Positions 5,136 to 15,380 of a stretch of DNA of 25,962 nucleotides are shown here, in pieces (the first letter of the stretch is position 1; each line of letters begins with the position of its first letter). The position numbers and the translations under genes were made by a program. The DNA lies in IMG/VR virus record IMGVR_UViG_3300009419_000081, positions 1 to 25,962 of that record; one strand, 5' to 3'. The DNA comes from a virus. The notes under the pieces were generated by a model, which saw nothing but the letters and a program-made list of their open reading frames with translations, was not told where the DNA came from and did not search any database.

Positions 5136-5357
5136 TTATCCACAGGCACTTGTGGATAGTGTGGATAACATCTGCAAGTCGTTGATTCTATTGATGTTTT
5201 TCTGTACGCTTACAAACTGCTGACATATCTGGCTTTATACAATGTCCATTATGTTAACTAATAATATCTGAAAGCATTACACGCAATACCCGAATGAAAC
5301 GCAATCTGTAACCAATCGGCAAGATTGTGCATAACTTTGGCATTTGCCTGTGGATAA
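5136..5357. other. Putative DnaA-dependent replication origin
   Basis: Four exact matches to the DnaA box TTATNCACA lie within 222 bp: 5136-5144 on the plus strand, and 5160-5168, 5326-5334 and 5349-5357 on the minus strand. A one-mismatch box at 5151-5159 abuts the second. Between the two groups is AT-rich DNA (about 5222-5275) suited to unwinding. An IHF-consensus site lies at 5175-5187. The arrangement resembles bacterial oriC and plasmid origins. No phage DNA polymerase is visible in the window, which fits recruitment of the host replisome. Function is inferred, but the box density is far beyond chance. Confidence 0.72.
5175..5187 (-). promoter_or_regulatory. IHF-type binding site
   Basis: The minus-strand sequence AATCAACGACTTG matches the E. 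coli IHF consensus WATCAANNNNTTR at every specified position. It lies seven bases beyond the DnaA-box pair, where a DNA bend would be expected in an origin. IHF also acts at lambda cos, so a packaging role is an alternative given the nearby terminase genes. Confidence 0.5.
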
Positions 5358-6593: not shown

Positions 6594-8624
6594 TCATGAA
6601 CCAAACCTCTCAGAATCTGTCTTCAACCAGACGAATCCAGACCCTATTACAACCTTCTTAGCGTCAACAAGTCTCTCCCTTGCCCTTGTCCAAGCCTTCT
6701 GAAACGCCGCTTTATCGTCATCAGTGCAACCCTTCATAGACCAGAATTCACCCTTCCAGTCCTCCAAAGTCACTCCATAGCGTGTAGTACCATCTACTTC
6801 ACGATATGATGCTTTAGCCTTAATCACTTTCATCAAGGAATCCATCTCCAAACGCTGATTTCCACCGCTACCAGCATTGTTTTTAGCGTTCTTCTTTGTT
6901 GTCTGAACTATCTCAGTGTTGGCCTGAACAGCTAATGAGGTGACTGATTCAAAGCCCAAGGCTGATGTTGAGACATCAATTGCCACAACATCAAAGCCAA
7001 TTGCAATGTCATCAGAGCCATCTTTTTGCTTAGTCACGGTGATAGTTCCTGAGCCTTTAACTGATGGGTCACCAGTGTTAATGACCGAATCTAGGCGGTT
7101 AATCTCAAGTTCAGTGTCCACGGCTCCAAGCAAAGAGCTATGTCCTCGCAGTCCCTTTGTTACGTCCTTACCGCTGTGATGGATGACTAATAAGGCACAG
7201 TCGTAGAAGGCTTGGAGTTTCCCTGCTTGGGTGATGAAGCCACCCATATCTTCTGAACTGTTCTCGTTAAAGCCACCTCCAGACATCCTCATCAGGGTGT
7301 CAAGCACAATCATCTGTAGCTTTTCACCAACTGTCTCAAGTAAGTCGTTGATTGCGCTAATTAAATTGTCAAAGTCTTCCTGTGAAGACCTTAAGTTAAT
7401 TTGCGCCCTAATGACATACAAAGGCGCACCATCTGGGCTGTCGTTCTTTATCTTGCAAGCCTTAATCCTTGCGCCTAAACCTCCATGACCTTCACCTGCG
7501 ATGTACAGCACCACACCTGACTGCTTAACGGCCTTACCCATCCAGTCACGCCCTGTAGCTATCGCCTCTGCCATATCAAGGGCAATGAATGACTTGTAAG
7601 ACGCTGGTGGTGCATACAAAGCCACAAATGCCTTCTTTGGGATGATGTCCTCAATCAGCCACTCTACTGGCTCGTCCTTTATGGAATCCCAAGACTCAAC
7701 CAGAAACCGTGACTTTTGGGCAGATTCAGATTGAGATGCTTCAGATTCAGGGACATCTAACTTCAATCTTTGCGGCAACCAGACTTCATCTACCGACTTG
7801 ATGACCGTACAGGCTCTAGCACTTGAAGCCAATGTTTCCCTGTCACCACCATACTTATTGACCCACTCAAAGGCATCCTCTTTCGGGTGTTTGAGTTCTA
7901 AATCCAACACCCTGACACTCTTTGCGACTGGTAGTAGTGCCTCCACCACCTTGGTAGCGTAACTCCAGCCTGAGACATCGTTATCAGGCACGATTACCAC
8001 GTTTGCGCCTGTGAAGTACTGGTTGAGTTCAGGACTCCAATTGCCTGAACCAGCATGACTTGTGGTGGCTACAACTTTCAGACTGCCCAAGGCATCTGCC
8101 GCCTTCTCGCCTTCAGTGATGTAGACAACTCGTCCAGCGGCTGTTGCCTGTTGCAGATCGGGTAGCTTGTAGGGGACGATTCTGCAATCTCCCAATTTGC
8201 CAACCCTTGAGTTGTCGGGCATGACTCTCAGGGTCTTATATGTCTTGCCTTTAGTGTCATTGGTCTTGAATCTTTGCTTCACGAACAGGGAGACACCATC
8301 TTCATCGGTGTAATGCCACTCCTGTTGGAATGTCGGTGTCTGAATGTAGGGTAGAGGCTTGATGCTTGATAGGTATTCGGGTCTATCTTGTTGGGGTAGG
8401 GCAGGGAGGAGTCCCATGTCCTTGATCGTGTTAAAGACGGTGTGCTGATCGCATCCACCGTGGCATTTAAAGAGGTAGTTCCCATCACTTGATTCTGTGA
8501 TGGATAGGCTTGGATGCTTGTCGCCGTTGCCTTGACCGTGCGAGGGTACAGGGCAAGATGCTAAGTAACCATTCCCTACTTTCTTGGCGTTTCCAAGCGT
8601 AGTGGCTAATTCTTGTGCTGACAT
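6594..8624 (-). CDS. Primase-helicase with zinc, TOPRIM and RepA-like ATPase domains
   Basis: This 676-residue protein should prime and unwind DNA at the phage fork. The N-terminal zinc-binding domain has Cys24, His29, Cys54 and Cys58. A TOPRIM domain follows with VVYITEGEKAADALG (Glu171) and VVIVPDND (Asp214, Asp216). After an acidic/serine linker, a RecA/RepA-type ATPase domain begins near residue 318. Its Walker A is the variant APPASYKS (338-345), its Walker B is MIVLD (438-442), and ALLVIHHSGKD is the following motif. The SYKS variant lacks the usual second Gly, but the Lys-Ser remain. The last ~100 residues are charged and may bind DNA or another replisome protein. A terminator-like hairpin separates it from the SSB gene upstream. 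Confidence 0.88.
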   Translation of the reverse strand: MSAQELATTLGNAKKVGNGYLASCPVPSHGQGNGDKHPSLSITESSDGNYLFKCHGGCDQHTVFNTIKDMGLLPALPQQDRPEYLSSIKPLPYIQTPTFQQEWHYTDEDGVSLFVKQRFKTNDTKGKTYKTLRVMPDNSRVGKLGDCRIVPYKLPDLQQATAAGRVVYITEGEKAADALGSLKVVATTSHAGSGNWSPELNQYFTGANVVIVPDNDVSGWSYATKVVEALLPVAKSVRVLDLELKHPKEDAFEWVNKYGGDRETLASSARACTVIKSVDEVWLPQRLKLDVPESEASQSESAQKSRFLVESWDSIKDEPVEWLIEDIIPKKAFVALYAPPASYKSFIALDMAEAIATGRDWMGKAVKQSGVVLYIAGEGHGGLGARIKACKIKNDSPDGAPLYVIRAQINLRSSQEDFDNLISAINDLLETVGEKLQMIVLDTLMRMSGGGFNENSSEDMGGFITQAGKLQAFYDCALLVIHHSGKDVTKGLRGHSSLLGAVDTELEINRLDSVINTGDPSVKGSGTITVTKQKDGSDDIAIGFDVVAIDVSTSALGFESVTSLAVQANTEIVQTTKKNAKNNAGSGGNQRLEMDSLMKVIKAKASYREVDGTTRYGVTLEDWKGEFWSMKGCTDDDKAAFQKAWTRARERLVDAKKVVIGSGFVWLKTDSERFGS

Positions 8625-8648
8625 TTATGGCGTTTCCAATTGAGGGGA

Positions 8649-8681
8649 CAAAAAAACCAGAGTCTCCCCCGAAACTCTGGT
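8649..8681 (-). terminator. Rho-independent terminator between SSB and primase-helicase genes
   Basis: On the minus strand an 8-bp stem, ACCAGAGT with ACTCTGGT (8656-8663 and 8674-8681), encloses a ten-base loop containing five consecutive Gs. It is followed directly by a run of seven T residues. This is a textbook intrinsic terminator, 20 bases after the SSB stop. Partial read-through must supply the primase-helicase unless a promoter exists that I could not find. Confidence 0.85.
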
Positions 8682-8700
8682 GCTGTGAGAGGTGCAGTGT

Positions 8701-9285
8701 TTAGCTGAACATCTCGTCATCACTCATTGCTGGTGATGGTGCGGGTTTGGCAACTGGTGTAGGTGCTGGCTTGGCTACTGGTGCTTGGAACTCAGGCTCT
8801 GCACTCTCACCACCTGCCAATGCCGCTGGTCGTGCCACCCAACCTGTGATTTCAAAGATCGGCACTCGTGTGCTTCCCTTGCCTACCTTCTCAGGGCGTG
8901 AACCCTTGTACTCAACGACTGGCAACTTACCAGCATTGGCTGACAAACCTGAAGAAGCGATCTTGTATAGATGTTCCAAGCCCATGTTAGAACCTGCACC
9001 GTTAGCACTCCACTCTGCAACACCGATCTCTTTGTTGTAGAAAGTGACCTTGAAGCCTCGTTTGTGTTCGGGTGATGGTTGTGCGCCTTTACGACCCAAC
9101 GAGTCATCAGCCACGAATTCAAAGACACCAGTTGCAATGAGCATCCAACCTGTTTGGATGTTCTCGATGTCGAACACGAACTTACCTAGTTGGAATTCAC
9201 CATCTTGGTTTGACCATGCGTTTGCTTGTGGGCTATATCGGATGTAGTTACCGTTACCGCCGCCGCCTGAGAGATTTAAGTTCAT
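8701..9285 (-). CDS. Probable single-stranded DNA-binding protein
   Basis: This 194-residue protein begins with a Gly/Asn-rich stretch and a likely OB-fold region (FQLGKFVFDIENIQTGWMLI to RVPIFEITGWVARP, named by their ends). A proline/alanine-rich flexible linker with repeated VAKPAPTP and VAKPAPSP follows. The protein ends in the acidic tip MSDDEMFS. A flexible linker with an acidic, aromatic-ending tip is the hallmark of SSB-type proteins, which use it to recruit partners. Its location between a recombination nuclease and the primase-helicase fits. I do not see a classic E. coli SSB fold signature, so it belongs to a diverged phage type. Terminator-like hairpins lie on both sides of the gene. 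Confidence 0.72.
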   Translation of the reverse strand: MNLNLSGGGGNGNYIRYSPQANAWSNQDGEFQLGKFVFDIENIQTGWMLIATGVFEFVADDSLGRKGAQPSPEHKRGFKVTFYNKEIGVAEWSANGAGSNMGLEHLYKIASSGLSANAGKLPVVEYKGSRPEKVGKGSTRVPIFEITGWVARPAALAGGESAEPEFQAPVAKPAPTPVAKPAPSPAMSDDEMFS

Positions 9286-9308
9286 TTGATGTTTCCTTGT
9301 TTAAAGTT

Positions 9309-9329
9309 AAAAAATGTGACAGATGTCAC
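9309..9329 (-). terminator. Palindrome with T-run upstream of the SSB gene
   Basis: The minus strand reads GTGACATCTGTCAC followed by ATTTTTT (arms 9316-9321 and 9324-9329). It can form a short stem and then a U-run, as a weak intrinsic terminator or attenuator. The perfect six-base symmetry also fits a repressor operator. It lies 30 bases before the SSB start, with no promoter visible between. Confidence 0.55.
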
Positions 9330-9351
9330 GGTGGGGGATTTGGGGTTGTGA

Positions 9352-10440
9352 TTATTGCGTCAGACCTTTGTCTCTTGCAAGCGTTAATCCACTTGATATG
9401 CGGGAAGTTAACGGTTCAATAGATTGCTTCAAGTCTTTCGGTAACAGTTTCTCTGCCGCCGCAGGGGTGATGAGTTCTTGCTTGACGATCTGGTCAATGG
9501 TGAGGCCGCAAGCCAACAGTGCAGGGACAACATCTGATTCTTTTGTCCATGAACGTAATGCTCTCTTGGGCGTGAGTTGCCAGCCATCAATGACAGCACC
9601 TGATTCCATGCGTTTTAAGGCGTGATCTCTCACAGCCTTGATGTAGTCCTCAACCATGTCAAATTGCGCCAGCAAGACGCTAATCTGTTGCTCTGTAAGC
9701 ACTTCTATTGGCGGTGCATTACTCACCACTTCAACAATCTGTTGCTGTGCAGGGCAAATAGTCTTTGCGGGGCAATACTGACAGGCTGAATCCGATGGTG
9801 TTGGTGGATATGCAGGGTTCAAGGCATTCTCAATAGCAGGCGCAAGAACATAGTGCTCCCAATCAACCAACTCCTGAATTGTCATTGAGTGCTTACGCAA
9901 CTCACCATGATGCGGCTGGATAATCCACAACTCGACAGTCGAGATGTCACGAAACAAGTTATGCAAATTCAGGGCTGACAAGGCGTATAGCTTAAGTTGT
10001 TCACTGTCGGCATCAACGTAACCACGACCTGTTTTCAGGTCAGCAATGATGAGTTTGCGTTTCTCTTTTGAGATACCGATAACGTCAGTCGTGCCTCCTA
10101 CTTTGCAAACTTGTGTGTCTTGATAGGGGATGAACTGCTCAACCTGAACACTGCCAGCACCTAACTCATCTTCAATCTTCCAGATGGCTTTGAGATGCTC
10201 AAGGGCGAACTCACAATTCTCCTCAGTCATTGTGATGCCTTCAAAGACTTGGCCTTCAAACTTTGTAGGGTCTAGGTCACCTTTGAAGCAGTGTTCTGCA
10301 AGTGAATGAATTGCAGTGCCTATCTTCGCCGCTTCGCCACCTTCCACATAGGGCATTTGTGCTGACAACTTGGCAGAGGCGGGACAGGCTATCCAACGTG
10401 ATGATGCTGATGCTCTGAGGTTCAGTTGCTTTGTTGCCAT
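9352..10440 (-). CDS. Cas4/RecB-like PD-(D/E)XK nuclease (DUF2800 type)
   Basis: This 362-residue protein is probably a recombination exonuclease that processes DNA ends. Motifs run in the usual order: GTAIH with His45, GGTTDVIGI with Asp119, IIADLKTGRG with Asp134 and Lys136, and QLKLYAL with Gln148. Four cysteines are placed as in Fe-S cluster nucleases of the Cas4/AddB type: Cys19, then Cys220, Cys223 and Cys229 in ACQYCPAKTICPA. The last third is helical and may contact DNA or the adjacent SSB. Its start overlaps the previous small gene by 19 bases. No CRISPR genes are nearby, so an adaptation role is unlikely; pairing with SSB suggests a recombination module. Confidence 0.85.
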   Translation of the reverse strand: MATKQLNLRASASSRWIACPASAKLSAQMPYVEGGEAAKIGTAIHSLAEHCFKGDLDPTKFEGQVFEGITMTEENCEFALEHLKAIWKIEDELGAGSVQVEQFIPYQDTQVCKVGGTTDVIGISKEKRKLIIADLKTGRGYVDADSEQLKLYALSALNLHNLFRDISTVELWIIQPHHGELRKHSMTIQELVDWEHYVLAPAIENALNPAYPPTPSDSACQYCPAKTICPAQQQIVEVVSNAPPIEVLTEQQISVLLAQFDMVEDYIKAVRDHALKRMESGAVIDGWQLTPKRALRSWTKESDVVPALLACGLTIDQIVKQELITPAAAEKLLPKDLKQSIEPLTSRISSGLTLARDKGLTQ

Positions 10441-10646
10441 GATGCTCTCTCAATGTGATGATGGTTAATGAGTAATTGGTAGGCAAGTTGCCTTGTTTCG
10501 TTTGATACTGCATGACCTAAGTCTTCAGGGTCTAGGATTCTTTTGAGGAACACGACTGTTGATTGGTTTTGCTTGCGTTCTTGTTCAAGCTGTACTGATA
10601 ACCAAACAATATGGTCACGCATCACTTGACGTTCTTTGTCATCCAT
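10422..10646 (-). CDS. Hypothetical protein, 74 residues
   Basis: I do not recognise this protein. I chose ATG at 10646, two bases after the preceding stop and preceded by GGAG; an upstream in-frame start at 10667 would overlap the previous gene. The sequence is mostly helical and charged: MDDKERQVMRDH, then HIVWLSVQLEQERKQNQS, then FLKRILDPEDLGHAVSN and a His-rich LINHHHIERASW near the end. It has no membrane segment. It is coupled to the nuclease gene, whose start lies inside it, so a small accessory of the nuclease is conceivable. Confidence 0.65.
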   Translation of the reverse strand: MDDKERQVMRDHIVWLSVQLEQERKQNQSTVVFLKRILDPEDLGHAVSNETRQLAYQLLINHHHIERASWQQSN

Positions 10647-10648
10647 TT

Positions 10649-11473
10649 TCAATCTCCACAGAAACAAGCGATTGTTTCCTCATTAGGGTCAAACATATCT
10701 CTTTGCTCTGATGCAAATTGAATCATTGAGGCATAGGATGGACGGTCGGAACGAAACACCGCACCGCTTGGCTTGCTTGCCAGTGCCAGTGCCTCCATTT
10801 GCGCCCACCATATACCACGTTCAGGTTTTTCTGCAATTAGAGAAAGCACTTGAGAGCCGCCCTTTAGAAAGCAAAGATCGCAATTGCCGTGATATGTCAC
10901 GCCATTGATATTTGGCAATTCCAAATCAAAAGGCTGATTACGCCAAAACTCTCCAACTGTTTCCTTAGTAACGCCAGCAGTTACCAAGGTAATCCTAGAT
11001 TTATCGGCAATCTTGGCGGCTCTACGTTGTTCATCTGCCCTCATACCAATCCAGTCCATAGTTTCATTGTGGTCAGTCCATCCTGTAGATTTCAAATACT
11101 TGTGTATGGTGCGAATCTTCAATTCAGAGGTGCAAAATCTTGTCACTGGATTGGGCAAATACTGACGTTTACGAATCAAAGCCTCAAATGGTTCGCCATT
11201 TCTGCTGGCTGTTTCGTAAGTCACTACCTCAAATGCAGGGTCGGAATCACGATATTCAAGCCATGCGATAGGAACATTCCAATTTGTCCCACAATCATGG
11301 ACAAACTTGAGGGTTGCCTCATCTTCCTTTCCAGTGTTAGCAAAGCAAACTACAGCCTCATCAGGCAACTTGCCATTATTAGCCTCCAGAACACGCCAAA
11401 GCATATAGGCACTGGTACGACCACCGCTAAAGCTGATGCAGGTCGGCTCGTTAATCTCGAATGGATTAGCCAT
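10649..11473 (-). CDS. PAPS reductase-like ATP pyrophosphatase family protein
   Basis: Counted from ATG at 11473, which overlaps the RuvC-like stop and follows GGGGG, the protein has 274 residues. The PP-loop ISFSGGRTSAYML contains SGGRTS at 16-21, where classical CysH proteins have SGGKDS. VVCFANTGKEDEATLKF follows, as in adenine nucleotide alpha hydrolases, and then TRFCTSELKIR. The second half has NCDLCFLKG and a terminal ACFCGD, so several cysteines could bind an Fe-S cluster or zinc. This subgroup is common in phages but its substrate is unknown. Sulfate assimilation, nucleic acid thiolation and DNA modification are all possible. Location among recombination genes favours DNA or nucleotide chemistry, which is inference. 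Confidence 0.8.
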   Translation of the reverse strand: MANPFEINEPTCISFSGGRTSAYMLWRVLEANNGKLPDEAVVCFANTGKEDEATLKFVHDCGTNWNVPIAWLEYRDSDPAFEVVTYETASRNGEPFEALIRKRQYLPNPVTRFCTSELKIRTIHKYLKSTGWTDHNETMDWIGMRADEQRRAAKIADKSRITLVTAGVTKETVGEFWRNQPFDLELPNINGVTYHGNCDLCFLKGGSQVLSLIAEKPERGIWWAQMEALALASKPSGAVFRSDRPSYASMIQFASEQRDMFDPNEETIACFCGD

Positions 11474-11939
11474 GCTTTGACCCCCACAATGCGATGAGTG
11501 CGGCATCACTACGACCATCATCTTTGACACGTTTAAAGAGTGCAGTTTGTTCAGGGAACAACTCCATTGCTCTGGCTCTTGAGCCATCTTTACCACCTGT
11601 CATGCCAAGACCTTTCTGCCAAGTCTGTGGAGTCATGAGAGTTGTTTTGATCTTCATGGTTGTGAGGACTCCCTCGACCACGCCAAGAGAACGACCAAAG
11701 GAGAAGACAGATGTCACGCCTTGCCCTGCCATAGCAAAAACCTTCTCTACATAGGCTTCATTAGGGTCAAACTGCTTGATGATGTCTACCAGTTCAGGCA
11801 CTGACACCTGACGTTTGGCTTTGCCATTACGGTCAAGGGTGACTGTTGGCATATCTACAACACCAACAAGTTCACCATCCTGAACCAAGGCGATAGCACC
11901 GTTAAGACCAACGTCAATACCCAAGGTGCGCTTAGTCAT
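11466..11939 (-). CDS. RuvC-like Holliday junction resolvase
   Basis: This 157-residue protein has the RNase H-fold RuvC signature: LGIDVGLNGAIAL with Asp9, VEKVFAM with Glu65, and KDDGRSDAALIAL with Asp141 and Asp145. A conserved PQTWQKGLG segment typical of phage members of the family is also present. It should cut four-way junctions or branched replication intermediates before packaging. The length is near that of bacterial RuvC (about 170). The ATG at 11939 overlaps the regulator stop codon and is preceded by AAGGGGG, so it is probably translated from the regulator transcript. All four acidic catalytic residues are visible. Confidence 0.9.
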   Translation of the reverse strand: MTKRTLGIDVGLNGAIALVQDGELVGVVDMPTVTLDRNGKAKRQVSVPELVDIIKQFDPNEAYVEKVFAMAGQGVTSVFSFGRSLGVVEGVLTTMKIKTTLMTPQTWQKGLGMTGGKDGSRARAMELFPEQTALFKRVKDDGRSDAALIALWGSKHG

Positions 11940-12162
11940 TTTGACCCCCTTGGAGGGCTTGTAGGCGGCTCTGAATGAGGGAATCTACCGATTCTTCTAG
12001 CCGTTTGATACTGGTGACCAGTGGTATGGTCTTTCCAGTGGCGTAACGGCTGACCTGAGAGGGGTCAAGACCAGCTTGCCTAGCCACATCAGTGATGGTG
12101 AAGCCAGCCTTTTCAGCCTTTTCCCTAATGGAATCAATAAGTTGCATGGTTTGTGTGTTCAT
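11932..12162 (-). CDS. Small Cro/CI-type HTH transcriptional regulator
   Basis: The 76-residue protein is almost entirely an HTH domain. The segment FTITDVARQAGLDPSQVSRYATGKTIPL (about residues 21-48; core DVARQAGLDPSQVSRYATG) fits the HTH_3 (Cro/C1) pattern. A C-terminal helix (IKRLEESVDSLIQSRLQAL) is probably for dimerisation. It is the first gene of the leftward replication/recombination operon. It is divergent from the plus cassette across a 152-bp region with TTGACTA half-sites overlapping both promoters, so autoregulation and control of the divergent promoter are likely. The ATG at 12162 has no Shine-Dalgarno, and the predicted transcript start lies one to three bases ahead of it. A later ATG at 12147 also lacks a site. 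Confidence 0.87.
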   Translation of the reverse strand: MNTQTMQLIDSIREKAEKAGFTITDVARQAGLDPSQVSRYATGKTIPLVTSIKRLEESVDSLIQSRLQALQGGQND

Positions 12163-12170
12163 GGGGCTGG

Positions 12171-12200
12171 ATTCTAGAGGACTTTGGATTGGTTAGTCAA
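12171..12200 (-). promoter_or_regulatory. Leftward promoter of the HTH regulator operon
   Basis: On the minus strand, TTGACT (12200-12195) and TAGAAT (12176-12171) are separated by 18 bases, giving five of six matches to each sigma-70 box. The expected start point falls around 12164, almost at the ATG at 12162, so the mRNA may be leaderless. The -35 box lies within a TTGACTA half-site. Confidence 0.6.
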
Positions 12201-12253
12201 GTGCTAATTGATTTAATAACCCACTGGAGTGTGTGGGATTAAATGGGTGGGGC

Positions 12254-12269
12254 TTGACTAGGTAGTCAA
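12254..12269. promoter_or_regulatory. Operator-like palindrome TTGACTA-GG-TAGTCAA
   Basis: Two perfect seven-base arms flank a GG spacer. A third copy of the half-site, TAGTCAA, lies at 12194-12200 over the -35 box of the opposite promoter. The divergent HTH regulator is the likely binder. Confidence 0.65.
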
Positions 12270-12281
12270 CTCTGATATGAT
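12254..12281 (+). promoter_or_regulatory. Rightward promoter of the plus-strand cassette
   Basis: TTGACT at 12254-12259 and TATGAT at 12276-12281 are separated by 16 bases, a good sigma-70 promoter. The first gene follows at 12315 with CAGGAGA as ribosome binding site. The operator palindrome covers the -35 box, so repression by occlusion is expected. Confidence 0.7.
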
Positions 12282-12314
12282 TCACCCATCAGCAACACAA
12301 ACAGGAGATACCAG

Positions 12315-12764
12315 ATGACAAACACAACTAAACAAATTCGTGGCAACTGCCAATGCTGTGGTCGCCAACAAGCTGTTGTAGGTGGCTTGATGTCCAAGCA
12401 TGGCTACACCGTCAAAGAGGGCTGGTTTTCTGGTGTTTGCTCAGGTCGTAACTACCAGCCTATTCAAGTAAGCCGCACCATGACAGACAAAATCATTGCT
12501 GACATTAGCGCAGAAATCCCAGAATTGATTGCCAAGGCTGAAAAAGTTAAGTCTGGCGAAATGACCCCCACAACAATCAAACTGCGCTTTAACAAAGAAA
12601 CAATACCTTTTGAGCAAGGCAACTTGAAACAACAGTCAGAAGCCAGAACTAGCTTGGAATGGGCTTACCGCAATCGTGCAAGAGCAGGTCAAGATTTTGT
12701 CAAAACAATGACTGAAGTTGCTGACAAATTTCATGGTCAATCGTTAATTGAAGTAACCAAGTAA
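12315..12764 (+). CDS. Conserved hypothetical protein with N-terminal Cys motif
   Basis: This 149-residue protein is the first gene after the rightward promoter, with CAGGAGA before the ATG. The N terminus carries GNCQCCGRQQAVV and a later VCSGRNYQPI, a cysteine arrangement that could bind zinc. The rest is helical (ELIAKAEKVKSGEM, ARTSLEWAYRNRARAG). Similar proteins occur in phages and plasmids as far as I recall, without known function. As the first product of the divergent operon it is a candidate early host-takeover or regulatory protein. That role is inference; only the Cys motif and position are seen. Confidence 0.8.
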   Translation: MTNTTKQIRGNCQCCGRQQAVVGGLMSKHGYTVKEGWFSGVCSGRNYQPIQVSRTMTDKIIADISAEIPELIAKAEKVKSGEMTPTTIKLRFNKETIPFEQGNLKQQSEARTSLEWAYRNRARAGQDFVKTMTEVADKFHGQSLIEVTK

Positions 12765-12812: not shown

Positions 12813-13085
12813 ATGACACGTTACACATTCACTAACAAACTTGAAGTCTTAGAGACAGTACGCCGAGCCATTCAGTTAGGCGTTAGCGACATTCACATTG
12901 TTGATTGCAGTGGTGATGGAGTTGGCTTTTGGATTGATATGGACTTGTCTTGCATCATGACAGATCAAGAACAAAAGTGGGTCACTCAATTTGCCGAACG
13001 TAAGGCAACCCCATTTGTTTACTACTCACCCTATAACGGCGAGTTCTTAGGCGCACAACCCGCTAAAGCTGGACAAGATTACTAA
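12813..13085 (+). CDS. Hypothetical protein, 90 residues
   Basis: I do not recognise this small soluble protein. AAAGGAGA (12798-12805) lies seven bases ahead of ATG at 12813, which I prefer to an in-frame TTG at 12807. The sequence alternates helices and strands: LEVLETVRRAIQLG, then SDIHIVDCSGDGVGFWIDMD, then a C-terminal part with PFVYYSPYNGEFLGAQ. It has no membrane segment. It is the second gene of the rightward cassette, and a small early protein is the natural expectation. Confidence 0.7.
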   Translation: MTRYTFTNKLEVLETVRRAIQLGVSDIHIVDCSGDGVGFWIDMDLSCIMTDQEQKWVTQFAERKATPFVYYSPYNGEFLGAQPAKAGQDY

Positions 13086-13094
13086 GGAAACCCC

Positions 13095-13247
13095 ATGCCA
13101 CTAGACGAATCAGACCTTGACTACATGAAAGCGGAGGACTTTTACCGCCGCCGCTACCAGTCAAACATTGCGGCTCACCCAGATTGCCGTGACCCTGCCC
13201 ATGATGGCTGTGAACTTTGTGAAGATGAGGAGAATGATGATGAATGA
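13095..13247 (+). CDS. Micro-protein with Cys/His motif, 50 residues
   Basis: This ORF begins at ATG 13095, four bases after the AAGGAAA ribosome binding site, and ends at TGA 13247. It has an acidic N terminus (MPLDESDLDYMKAEDF), a basic patch YRRRYQ and a putative zinc knuckle HPDCRDPAHDGCELC, then an acidic tail EDEENDDE. The His/Cys spacing is suggestive but I cannot assign a family. The next gene starts inside its end. Good initiation signals and operon placement support it as a real gene despite its size. Confidence 0.6.
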   Translation: MPLDESDLDYMKAEDFYRRRYQSNIAAHPDCRDPAHDGCELCEDEENDDE

Positions 13248-13326
13248 GAAACTTCTTGATGTCCTAGCGGCTACCGCTATCGGTATCGGCTTTGCTGTTT
13301 TGCTTGTGGCATGGTGGTCTTCATGA
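13234..13326 (+). CDS. Tiny single-span membrane protein, 28-30 residues
   Basis: Three consecutive ATG codons (13234, 13237, 13240) follow GAGGAG at 13227-13232; the third gives the best spacing. The product is MNEKLLDVLAATAIGIGFAV followed by LLVAWWSS, a short charged start and one hydrophobic helix. It overlaps the end of the 50-residue ORF, and its stop overlaps the next start as ATGA at 13323. Such micro-membrane proteins in early phage operons may act on host membranes, but no function is known here. Confidence 0.5.
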   Translation: MMMNEKLLDVLAATAIGIGFAVLLVAWWSS

Positions 13327-13526
13327 ACAACCCACCAGCATTTCCTCCTATGCACGACCCCAATACGCATGAGTTTGGCATGACATTGCGTGACTACTTT
13401 GCGGCAAAGGCTATGCAAGCGGTAATCACTGGATATGCAACACAAAATAAAGTCGGTTTGTATTCCAATTGGGCGGGTCTTGCTTATGAAATGGCAGACG
13501 CAATGTTGAAAGAGAGAGAAGCATGA
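13323..13526 (+). CDS. Conserved hypothetical small phage protein, 67 residues
   Basis: I chose ATG 13323, which overlaps the previous stop as ATGA; an upstream in-frame ATG at 13311 would lie inside the membrane micro-gene. The protein starts with a proline-rich MNNPPAFPPMHDPN. It then carries GMTLRDYFAAKAMQAVITG, a motif I recognise as recurring in many small phage proteins of unknown function, and a helical tail LAYEMADAMLKEREA. No metal or membrane motif is present. Its stop again overlaps the following start (13523). Confidence 0.75.
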   Translation: MNNPPAFPPMHDPNTHEFGMTLRDYFAAKAMQAVITGYATQNKVGLYSNWAGLAYEMADAMLKEREA

Positions 13527-13768
13527 CCGAACTCCAAGACTTCTGCCAAGAAGCCAGAACAATGGAAGAACTCGTAGAGGCAGGGTTCAAGGCTCATCAA
13601 GTCTATAACGCTGTCAAGCGTAAGGAGTTGACCAATACCAAGGCAACAGACGATTGGGGGCGCAAGATCAAGACTAAGGGCTTGTTCCTGTCAACAGTCA
13701 CCATTGCGCCTATGAACTTCACCGCCTTGCAAGTTGCATGGCATCAACCACAGGAGAACAGAGTATGA
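13523..13768 (+). CDS. Hypothetical protein, 81 residues, possible winged-helix
   Basis: The start overlaps the preceding stop as ATGA. The helical N-terminal half (MTELQDFCQEARTMEELVEA) followed by GFKAHQVYNAVKRKEL resembles the second and third helices of a winged-helix domain. The basic segment DDWGRKIKTKGLF could be the wing. I have no family name for it. A DNA-binding role is therefore a guess from shape only. The gene ends within the next start at 13765. Confidence 0.65.
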   Translation: MTELQDFCQEARTMEELVEAGFKAHQVYNAVKRKELTNTKATDDWGRKIKTKGLFLSTVTIAPMNFTALQVAWHQPQENRV

Positions 13769-14028
13769 GTATGCAAGCAGAACTTAAAGAGTTGGTGACT
13801 CGTATAGCACCATCTAAGGACATTGCTGGTGGCTTCATGTCCCGCAATGACATCATCCAACTTATCAACAAGGTGGCTGATGAAGCTGTCCTGATTGGAT
13901 GGGCAAGGGCTGAGACTTTAAGCCGCCAGCGGCTAGAAAAGAAGATCACCAGCATGGAACAAGAGATCGAGATTCTCAAAGACAGAATCAAAGACCTTGA
14001 ACTTGAAGTCATTGCATCCACAAAATGA
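13765..14028 (+). CDS. Hypothetical coiled-coil protein, 87 residues
   Basis: AGGAGA at 13752-13757 points to ATG 13765, which overlaps the previous stop; an ATG at 13738 would run deep into the previous gene. Residues 1-50 include MQAELKELVTRIAP and SRNDIIQLINKVADEAVLIG. The C-terminal half has clear heptad spacing (RLEKKITSMEQEIEILKDRI, then KDLELEVIAS), so a dimeric coiled coil is likely. Function is unknown. It ends ATGA into the next gene. Confidence 0.68.
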   Translation: MSMQAELKELVTRIAPSKDIAGGFMSRNDIIQLINKVADEAVLIGWARAETLSRQRLEKKITSMEQEIEILKDRIKDLELEVIASTK

Positions 14029-14342
14029 AAGTCTGGAATGCCATCATGATTGCAGTGCTTTGCGCCTTGGCTCTCATGTATTTTGATTCAGAAGAAAAGG
14101 AGAAATCAGATGTTGGAAACAGTGCTTTACGTCTTCTTAGCAGGGATTTTCGGCTCGATATTGGGAATTTGCGTGTGTATCGGGTTTGCGTTGTATCTGG
14201 TAAATCGGGACGAGCGGGAAGAAAGATAGTGAAATGCCCAGTTTGTGACCAGTGGGTTAGGAATAGTGCAATGCAATACAGATGCGGTAGTGACCGCAAG
14301 ATTGAAAGAATTATTCTTGTAACTGAACGAAAGAAGAAATGA
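14025..14342 (+). CDS. Hypothetical membrane plus Cys-motif protein, 105 residues (may be two genes)
   Basis: Translation from ATG 14025 (ATGA overlap) gives a hydrophobic N terminus MKVWNAIMIAVLCALALMYF, a charged middle and a C-terminal KCPVCDQWV...YRCG zinc-ribbon-like part. The middle third (about residues 30-68) lacks normal protein character and coincides with another gene in a different frame (14110-14229). A GTG at 14229 could start the Cys-rich part independently. So this frame may be a real fusion, or a short membrane ORF that reads through the nested gene because no stop intervenes. Both readings are given. Confidence 0.5.
   Translation: MKVWNAIMIAVLCALALMYFDSEEKEKSDVGNSALRLLSRDFRLDIGNLRVYRVCVVSGKSGRAGRKIVKCPVCDQWVRNSAMQYRCGSDRKIERIILVTERKKK
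14110..14229 (+). CDS. Nested single-span membrane protein, 39 residues
   Basis: AAAGGAG (14096-14102) lies seven bases ahead of ATG 14110, the best ribosome binding site in this stretch. The product begins MLETVLYVFLAGIFGSILGI, continues hydrophobic through CVCIGFALYL and ends VNRDEREER. It is a well-formed single transmembrane helix with a positive/charged cytoplasmic tail. It lies wholly inside the 105-residue frame in another register. Its stop TAG shares bases with the GTG at 14229. The strong initiation signals make it more convincing than the overlapping part of the larger frame. Confidence 0.62.
   Translation: MLETVLYVFLAGIFGSILGICVCIGFALYLVNRDEREER
14229..14342 (+). CDS. Alternative short zinc-ribbon-like ORF from GTG, 37 residues
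   Basis: The GTG at 14229 overlaps the TAG of the nested membrane gene, a common coupling arrangement. The product would start MKCPVCDQWVRNSAMQYRCG and end in a basic tail. Small phage proteins starting MKCPVC are common as I recall. GGAAGA upstream is a weak ribosome binding site. It is in frame with the larger ORF, so it could instead be its C-terminal domain. Confidence 0.45.
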   Translation: MKCPVCDQWVRNSAMQYRCGSDRKIERIILVTERKKK

Positions 14343-14587
14343 TTAACGTAGGTGTGAAGTTGACATTAAGCCAGCAAGCAAAGTGGAGAGAACTTGGTGG
14401 TGCAAAGTGGTTGCGTGAATATCTTTGCCAAAAGATTGAAGATGATCGGACTATGGAAATGGGTAGGGTGCTAGGGGTGAAGATGACTCCAAAGCCAATA
14501 CCACAAAAATCAAACAAAGAACTCATTGCGTCAGTTGAGAAGATTCTTGACGATGCAAAGGCTCAAATTAAAAAGGCGGTTGCATGA
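14339..14587 (+). CDS. Hypothetical protein, 82 residues
   Basis: The start overlaps the previous stop as ATGA. The N-terminal part, VGVKLTLSQQAKWRELGGAK followed by WLREYLCQKIEDD, looks like a compact helical domain. The C-terminal part (NKELIASVEKILDDAKAQIK) is an amphipathic helix. The Ala/Lys-rich end could bind nucleic acid or form a coiled coil. I do not recognise a family. It is one of a run of ATGA-coupled small genes. Confidence 0.68.
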   Translation: MINVGVKLTLSQQAKWRELGGAKWLREYLCQKIEDDRTMEMGRVLGVKMTPKPIPQKSNKELIASVEKILDDAKAQIKKAVA

Positions 14588-14802
14588 ACTGGCGAGACTT
14601 AACAATCAAATACGTCAAAGATTTACTCAGAGCAAAGACTCCATTGGAGGTGGCTCACAAGGAACTCATTGAGGCACAACACGCCAAGATGCAAGCTGAG
14701 ACTTCTGTGGAGTACTCACAAGCCTTGGTGAACTACAACGAACAGAGAATCTTCAGGCTCTACAAACGAATCAACGAACTACAGGAGTTTGGTCATGATT
14801 GA
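14584..14802 (+). CDS. Hypothetical helical protein, 72 residues
   Basis: The start overlaps the previous stop (ATGA). The protein is almost all helix, with TIKYVKDLLRAKTPLEVAHK and a long heptad-like stretch (ELIEAQHAKMQAETSVEYSQ, then NEQRIFRLYKRINELQEF). Similar short helical proteins with ELxEAxxxxLxAETxxEYA patterns recur in phages, as I recall, with unknown role. It overlaps the next gene by eight bases. Confidence 0.68.
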   Translation: MNWRDLTIKYVKDLLRAKTPLEVAHKELIEAQHAKMQAETSVEYSQALVNYNEQRIFRLYKRINELQEFGHD

Positions 14803-14998
14803 AGAACCAGAAGACGAGGCATTCAACGAAATTGAACGTCAAAGCCTGTGGCGTAAACGTGCTGTGCAAGCGGCAATCTCAACCAATCCATATCGTGACC
14901 AAGTGATTGAAGAAGTAGCCCAAGCCATCCTAAAGATGGAAGGGTTTGGCAAGGACACATTGCACAGCTTTGCAATTTACATTCGGGGGCTGAAATGA
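14795..14998 (+). CDS. Hypothetical protein, 67 residues
   Basis: AGGAG near 14783 and the overlap with the previous stop support ATG 14795; an in-frame TTG six bases earlier is less likely. The protein has an acidic start MIEEPEDEAFNEIE, then basic LWRKRAVQAAISTN, then helical VIEEVAQAILKMEGFGKDTL and a short end. It is soluble, with no motif recognised. It ends by overlapping the next start (ATGA at 14995). Confidence 0.67.
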   Translation: MIEEPEDEAFNEIERQSLWRKRAVQAAISTNPYRDQVIEEVAQAILKMEGFGKDTLHSFAIYIRGLK

Positions 14999-15180
14999 AC
15001 CCACCAAAAAACGCATTTGACTTCTCTGGCGCATCAATCTGGACTAAGGACAAGGAGCTTGTCCAGATCAACAATGGCAAAATCAACGGTTCAAAGCGTA
15101 GAGAGCAAATGAGACTTACTGAGACTCTAAATGTGCGTGAGAACTTCACGACTTACAGCAAGGCTAGAGCCTCTAAATGA
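14995..15180 (+). CDS. Hypothetical protein, 61 residues
   Basis: The start overlaps the previous stop as ATGA. The small polar protein has MNPPKNAFDFSGASIWTK at the start and a basic central RREQMRL segment, then ETLNVRENFTTYSKARASK. No domain or membrane segment is visible. It is coupled to the final gene of the cassette. Confidence 0.6.
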   Translation: MNPPKNAFDFSGASIWTKDKELVQINNGKINGSKRREQMRLTETLNVRENFTTYSKARASK

Positions 15181-15380
15181 TAGTAAAAATCCGCACCTTT
15201 TATGGCAGAACTAAGGGGGTCAGAGGTGACCGCAAGACTGATGTTGTAATGGGTACGGCTTGGCTATGCCAGAAGTGTGGTGAGGTGATCTTGTATGAAC
15301 ACCTCACCCCTAAACACTATTGCAAGCGTCCTCTTATGCCTGTAGTCCTTGCAAATACTGAGTCTTCCCCGCAACCTTAA
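15177..15380 (+). CDS. Small zinc-ribbon-like protein, 67 residues
   Basis: The start overlaps the previous stop as ATGA. The sequence has a basic N terminus (MIVKIRTFYGRTKGVRGDRK), then AWLCQKCGEVILYEHLTPKHYC, a C-x2-C plus H/C arrangement that could bind one zinc. It is the last gene of the rightward cassette, and its final 47 bases overlap the 3' end of the endolysin gene on the other strand. Function is unknown. A strong inverted repeat (15279-15308) lies within it. Confidence 0.65.
   Translation: MIVKIRTFYGRTKGVRGDRKTDVVMGTAWLCQKCGEVILYEHLTPKHYCKRPLMPVVLANTESSPQP
15279..15308. repeat. Nine-bp inverted repeat in the convergent region
   Basis: GGTGAGGTG at 15279-15287 pairs perfectly with CACCTCACC at 15300-15308 around a 12-base loop. 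Neither side has a T-run, so it is not a classic terminator. It sits just where rightward and leftward transcripts meet and could slow polymerase or protect mRNA ends. It lies in coding sequence, so chance is possible. Confidence 0.4.

Follow-up and report, generated by a model that had tools for sequence, protein, structure and literature searches.

The divergent intergenic region of a 25,962-nt phage record (IMGVR_UViG_3300009419_000081, positions 1-25,962) was analysed computationally, and this whole stretch of DNA is referred to below as the window. At the locus, 152 bp separate the leftward gene of a 76-aa regulator (11932-12162) from a rightward gene encoding 149 aa (12315-12764), and a divergent pair of sigma-70-like promoters, predicted PL and PR, flanks 53 bp. 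The features are as follows, with O1 and O2 denoting putative operators.

6594-11506, minus strand: remaining genes of the leftward operon (PAPS-reductase-like, small ORF, DUF2800 exonuclease, unknown 194-aa protein, primase-helicase)
11466-11939, minus strand: RuvC-type Holliday junction resolvase, overlapping the regulator gene by 8 bp
11932-12162, minus strand: regulator gene, 76 aa, HTH_3 (XRE), Pfam E 1.1e-8
12200-12171, minus strand: PL, predicted leftward promoter, TTGACT-18-TAGAAT, 10/12 match (promoter scan)
12171-12176, minus strand: PL -10 box TAGAAT, 8 nt from the regulator ATG
12195-12200, minus strand: PL -35 box TTGACT, doubling as the near half of O2
12185-12200, minus strand: O2, putative operator TTGAC-TAACCA-ATCCA, a degenerate 16-bp copy in the same register as O1
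12209-12242: central conserved blocks TTTAATCCCnCACA and TATTnAATCA (minus strand), between O1 and O2
12254-12269, no strand assigned: O1, putative operator TTGACTAGGTAGTCAA, an inverted repeat free of mismatches, with arms of 7 bp, beginning on the PR -35 box
12254-12281, plus strand: PR, predicted rightward promoter, TTGACT-16-TATGAT, 10/12 match (promoter scan)
12315-12764, plus strand: first PR gene, 149 aa, phrog_17208 (unknown function), with a normal Shine-Dalgarno sequence
12813-15380, plus strand: remaining genes of the rightward operon, small and for the most part of no known family

Relatives of the regulator were encoded at 56, then 98 places in IMG/VR, and 73 distinct intergenic sequences from uncultured relatives were compared. 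Seven groups (A, A2, A3, B, C, D and E) were set by eye from regulator and promoter sequence rather than from a tree. Two of the records carry two diverged copies of the region, in the same orientation 33 kb apart in G003 (L058-L060) and inverted about 10 kb apart in G020 (L145-L146); both are probably assembly chimaeras of strains.

In none of 2000 dinucleotide shuffles of the intergenic region were 10/12 promoters obtained on both strands, and over 7 kb the promoter scan returned sites not above shuffle level (6 vs 8.2). A TG preceding the PR -10 box was also flagged by the scan. This -10 box was near-invariant among relatives, and the spacing between the PL -35 and -10 boxes was 17-18 across the 73 intergenic sequences.

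The heptamer TTGACTA, reported in an earlier note on this DNA to overlap both -35 boxes, was indeed found at 12194-12200 on the minus strand and at 12254-12260 (plus) and 12263-12269 (minus). These are three of the seven copies in the window, where the heptamer alone was not enriched (7 found vs 3.96 expected, 9 of 100 shuffles reaching 7). The window contains one exact copy of the palindrome TTGACTANNTAGTCAA, at 12254-12269; allowing up to two mismatches gives 2 sites vs 0.16 expected. The perfect palindrome described over the rightward -35 box was thereby confirmed, while the leftward site, previously taken as a half-site, proved to be a full degenerate 16-bp operator. Across relatives the conserved half-site is the 5-mer TKGAC, not the heptamer. 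The common operator pattern spans 16 bp, TTGAC-N6-GTCAA, with each -35 box forming one half. A second perfect TTGAC-N6-GTCAA at 9482-9497 lies inside a coding gene and was taken as chance.

When the consensus was built on O1 alone, the O2 far half scored 3.76/5 (mean of group means) at a spacer of 6 and at most 2.57/5 at other spacers, a result equalled in 3 of 5000 joint column permutations. O2 was perfect in L033 and L005, and clade E carries near-identical twin promoters, both sites reading TTGAC-N6-GTCCA and most of a 30-bp stretch being shared. Most of group B has far halves TTAAC or TTAAT. The two putative operators are, on this comparison, one motif, and the O1/O2 pattern was mostly kept across the 73 distinct versions. 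O1 is not universally kept because it is degraded in the clade B relatives L027, L041 and L048, in which the PR -35 box is weak, and clade A, to which the window belongs, has a weak O2 with 3/5 matches to the O1 far half. The order of sequence match also varied by clade, O1 being better in A, O2 better in L005 and the two equal in E, and this shift between groups speaks against a finely ordered switch. The predicted promoter-operator layout is conserved across the whole phage group.

Relative to the predicted transcription starts, the operators are centred at about -30 (O2) and about -27 (O1). This placement in the core promoters is that of a repressor and, because O1 and O2 both lie inside core promoters, repression of both promoters would be expected. 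Between them, many columns of the central blocks reached 1.9-2.0 bits in a clade-balanced alignment; these blocks could be UP-element-like or a site for another protein. The motif ATTAAAT sits 9-10 nt upstream of both the PL and the PR -35 box in the window. A hairpin formed by the central inverted repeat (12211-12244) was considered and dropped because the palindrome is lost in clade B.

The mRNA of lambda cI, transcribed from PRM, is leaderless. A similar arrangement was suggested earlier for the regulator studied here, with a predicted PL start close to the ATG and no ribosome binding site, and the sequence bears out both parts. The last base of the PL -10 box is 12171 and the first of the ATG is 12162, with 8 nt between them, so a start 7-9 nt beyond the -10 box would leave a leader of 0-2 nt. 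Predicted anti-Shine-Dalgarno pairing was 0 kcal/mol for the regulator vs a median of -5.8 for 36 ORFs, some of whose start codons are approximate. The gap from -10 box to ATG was 8-11 nt in all 73 distinct relatives, despite changing discriminator sequence. Leaderless expression of the regulator is strongly predicted because this distance is kept in 73/73 and a Shine-Dalgarno sequence is lacking. A -10-like signal some 10-12 bp ahead of the start codon is a recognised mark of leaderless genes (PMC3160421), and the regulator combines such a TANNNT signal with the lack of a Shine-Dalgarno sequence. Its first codons are CA-rich (ATGAACACACAAACC), and CA repeats in the first codons enhance leaderless translation (PMC9031893). 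In the more distant relative L056, upstream of 10001, a regulator of 39% identity directly precedes a RuvC of 70% identity; a possible -10 box, TAACAT, lies 7 nt before the regulator ATG and a shorter TTAAC-N3-GTCAA site adjoins its start codon, the start codon itself being uncertain.

The regulator matched the HTH_3 profile (PF01381) at 35.5 bits vs a curated cut-off of 23, which places it in this family. In its confident AlphaFold2 model (mean pLDDT 89.8), helices 23-30 and 34-42 form the HTH and a long C-terminal helix is present. Solved XRE proteins neighbouring the model include C.Esp1396I, C.AhdI, HipB, DdrO, P22 c2 and Aca10; no Foldseek neighbour had E <0.01 and the fold therefore gives class, not family. 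In VIA-align, eukaryotic HNF-1 and POU domains are among the hits with top Z values, and the fold match is thus generic. A PDB sequence search with the regulator returned designed and unrelated proteins only, and NCBIfam identities (RstR and others) were discarded at scores far under cut-off. The regulator is predicted to bind O1 and O2.

The regulator is the first gene of the replication operon and is read in the same direction. The Shine-Dalgarno sequence of RuvC lies inside the end of the regulator gene and is the strongest of the 36 ORFs (some starts approximate). RuvC follows the regulator directly in 64 of 70 assessable relatives, and six relatives had no RuvC match directly after it. 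Of six DnaA-box matches (TTWTNCACA) in the window, four fall within about 220 bp at 5136-5357, between two operons. This cluster is a possible origin, the total box count being not above chance, and the DnaA-box region held no operator-like site at up to one mismatch.

On the other side, the first PR gene falls into 25 mutually dissimilar families among 69 relatives, many of them common to several groups, and PHROGs assigned no known function to any first PR gene tested. Several pairs taken across groups shared first genes of 92-100% identity while their regulators were 76-79% identical (98% vs 76% for L002/L022, 100% vs 79% for L050/L086). Judged by these identities, the PR-proximal genes are recent exchanges between phages. 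The PR leader and first gene (12282-12764 in the window) swap between groups as cassettes, and about half a dozen types of initial transcribed sequence recur across groups. In the group E region L145, the right operon includes an additional 79-aa XRE protein (11637-11876, minus strand).

The absence of an integrase, stated previously for the window, extended to the relatives: the tyrosine integrase family PF00589 was absent from 17/17 related records and the serine recombinase family PF00239 from 13/13, most of which may be fragments. The record G008, which has 32,011 bases and a perfect terminal repeat of 126 bp, looks complete, and its ORFs of at least 100 aa in the part missing from the window included no integrase-like protein in the same searches; by eye, these ORFs are structural and HNH-like. 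The partition ATPase family PF13614 (AAA_31/ParA) was found in 0/10 records. With the HTH_3 profile, no second HTH_3 protein was detected in the window and seven other single-genome records, and the extra XRE protein of G020 (L145) was not matched by the HTH_3 search in other records. No relative of the regulator was found among cultured phages or the genomes of 84,980 bacterial and archaeal species, 72,556 plasmid records gave no match to regulator or portal, and the nearest phages by portal were <26% identical.

In these integrase-less phages, the two divergent early operons are probably under the control of a small Cro-like autorepressor, which would produce an early burst followed by shared feedback. 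The promoter and operator geometry with its conservation, the operon order, the cassette exchange and the integrase absence in the searched records were read from sequence, and the course of infection would be as follows. Host RNA polymerase would fire PR and PL just after infection. PR would yield a variable set of small early proteins, and the PL mRNA, predicted to start at or within a few bases of the AUG, would yield the regulator and then the replication and recombination proteins. As the regulator rises, we infer that its dimers would occupy the 16-bp O1 and O2 and block polymerase at both promoters. The predicted outcome is an early burst and then negative feedback on the accessory operon and the replication genes, with no choice between lysis and lysogeny. 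The central conserved blocks count against this dual-repression model in that another, equally important regulator could bind there. The degraded O1 of some clade B relatives, the weak O2 of clade A and the six relatives with no RuvC match right after the regulator count against it as well.

The arrangement had been interpreted before as a genetic switch, serving timing or a plasmid-like state. A lambda-like lysis-lysogeny switch, with the regulator as maintenance repressor of an integrated or plasmid-like temperate phage, is nevertheless very unlikely. Plasmid prophages such as PY54 do have divergent promoters, shared operators and leaderless repressor transcripts (PMC4488713), and the DnaA-box cluster at 5136-5357 is in keeping with such a state. 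Keeping the regulator on would however also express the replication genes behind it, and which of O1 and O2 looks stronger by sequence differs between clades. The lack of PF00589, PF00239 and PF13614, of a second HTH_3 protein in the eight single-genome records and of relatives in sequenced species and plasmids argues in the same direction. A switch in the lambda sense was given up on the grounds that the regulator heads the replication operon, that no second HTH_3 protein was found in eight single-genome records and that the order of O1 and O2, judged by sequence, varies. The plasmid-like state gained no positive support from the PF13614 and plasmid searches; of the roles suggested in the earlier note, timing or feedback fits best. 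A lysis-lysogeny or ordered bistable switch is accordingly unlikely, and shared negative feedback of the Cro, Aca or C-protein kind fits better.

Two further explanations accept a regulator at this locus and differ in what it does. It could first activate and later repress its own promoter, as the C proteins of restriction-modification (R-M) systems do. C.Esp1396I and C.AhdI rank near the top of the solved folds matched to the model, O1 contains GACT-N4-AGTC, and C-protein genes are commonly leaderless with C boxes of the form GACT-tat-AGTC (PMC4824078). We find this improbable, as each promoter has a single operator, placed over the -35 box and not upstream of it, PL comes close to consensus unaided (10/12), the half-site spacer is one base longer, no restriction genes were recognised and the fold match is generic (Foldseek E >0.01). 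Little more credence than to the lysogeny switch is given to action on one promoter only, with the other site being just a -35 box and the central blocks binding the real co-regulator. In its favour, TTGAC is by itself a -35 consensus, clade A has a poor O2, and the central blocks are conserved as much as the promoters. Against it, the O2 far half follows the operator from clade to clade, matches perfectly in L033 and L005, and in clade E is the same as in O1.

If repression of both promoters by the regulator is true, one small protein couples shut-off of the early island to replication control without lysogeny. More tentatively, PR may be a conserved docking point for fast-exchanged anti-defence genes, with the regulator as an Aca-like governor that also throttles replication in strictly lytic phages; since it would govern both the PR island and replication, both needs would be tied to one feedback loop. 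The conserved PR promoter-operator could thus be used as bait for early, possibly anti-defence, genes, and PR with its leader would give a search string for new ones, as conserved promoters have done in archaeal viruses (PMC11065993). The 73 promoter variants would also be a natural set for how leaderless genes keep their -10-to-AUG distance.

A literature search found no useful precedent for Cro-like repressors in virulent phages. In lambda, Cro is encoded at the head of an operon that also carries replication genes. The Cro autorepressors of lambda and PY54 are likewise small HTH proteins with operators in or beside divergent core promoters, and PY54 has leaderless mRNAs from its intergenic region (PMC4488713). 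Unlike in Cro systems, no partner CI repressor or integrase was found here, and the promoter facing the other way leads into a variable accessory operon instead of a lysogeny repressor. Aca proteins are small HTH autorepressors whose inverted-repeat sites sit inside the core promoter that drives early accessory genes (PMC9410906); O1 and O2 are similarly inverted repeats overlapping -35 boxes within core promoters, with repression predicted. In contrast to Aca, the regulator here is transcribed away from the accessory genes, at the head of a replication operon, and no anti-CRISPR was recognised. R-M C proteins share similar size and fold class, a leaderless gene (predicted here) and GACT...AGTC operator symmetry (PMC4824078). 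Their C boxes are GACT-N3-AGTC in tandem pairs, whereas O1 has a single GACT-N4-AGTC overlapping the -35 box, and no R-M genes were recognised beside the regulator, whose neighbours are a resolvase, an exonuclease and unknowns. Each element is thus known from other systems, and what sets this locus apart is that a single operator pair is predicted to control both a replication operon and an exchanged early cassette.
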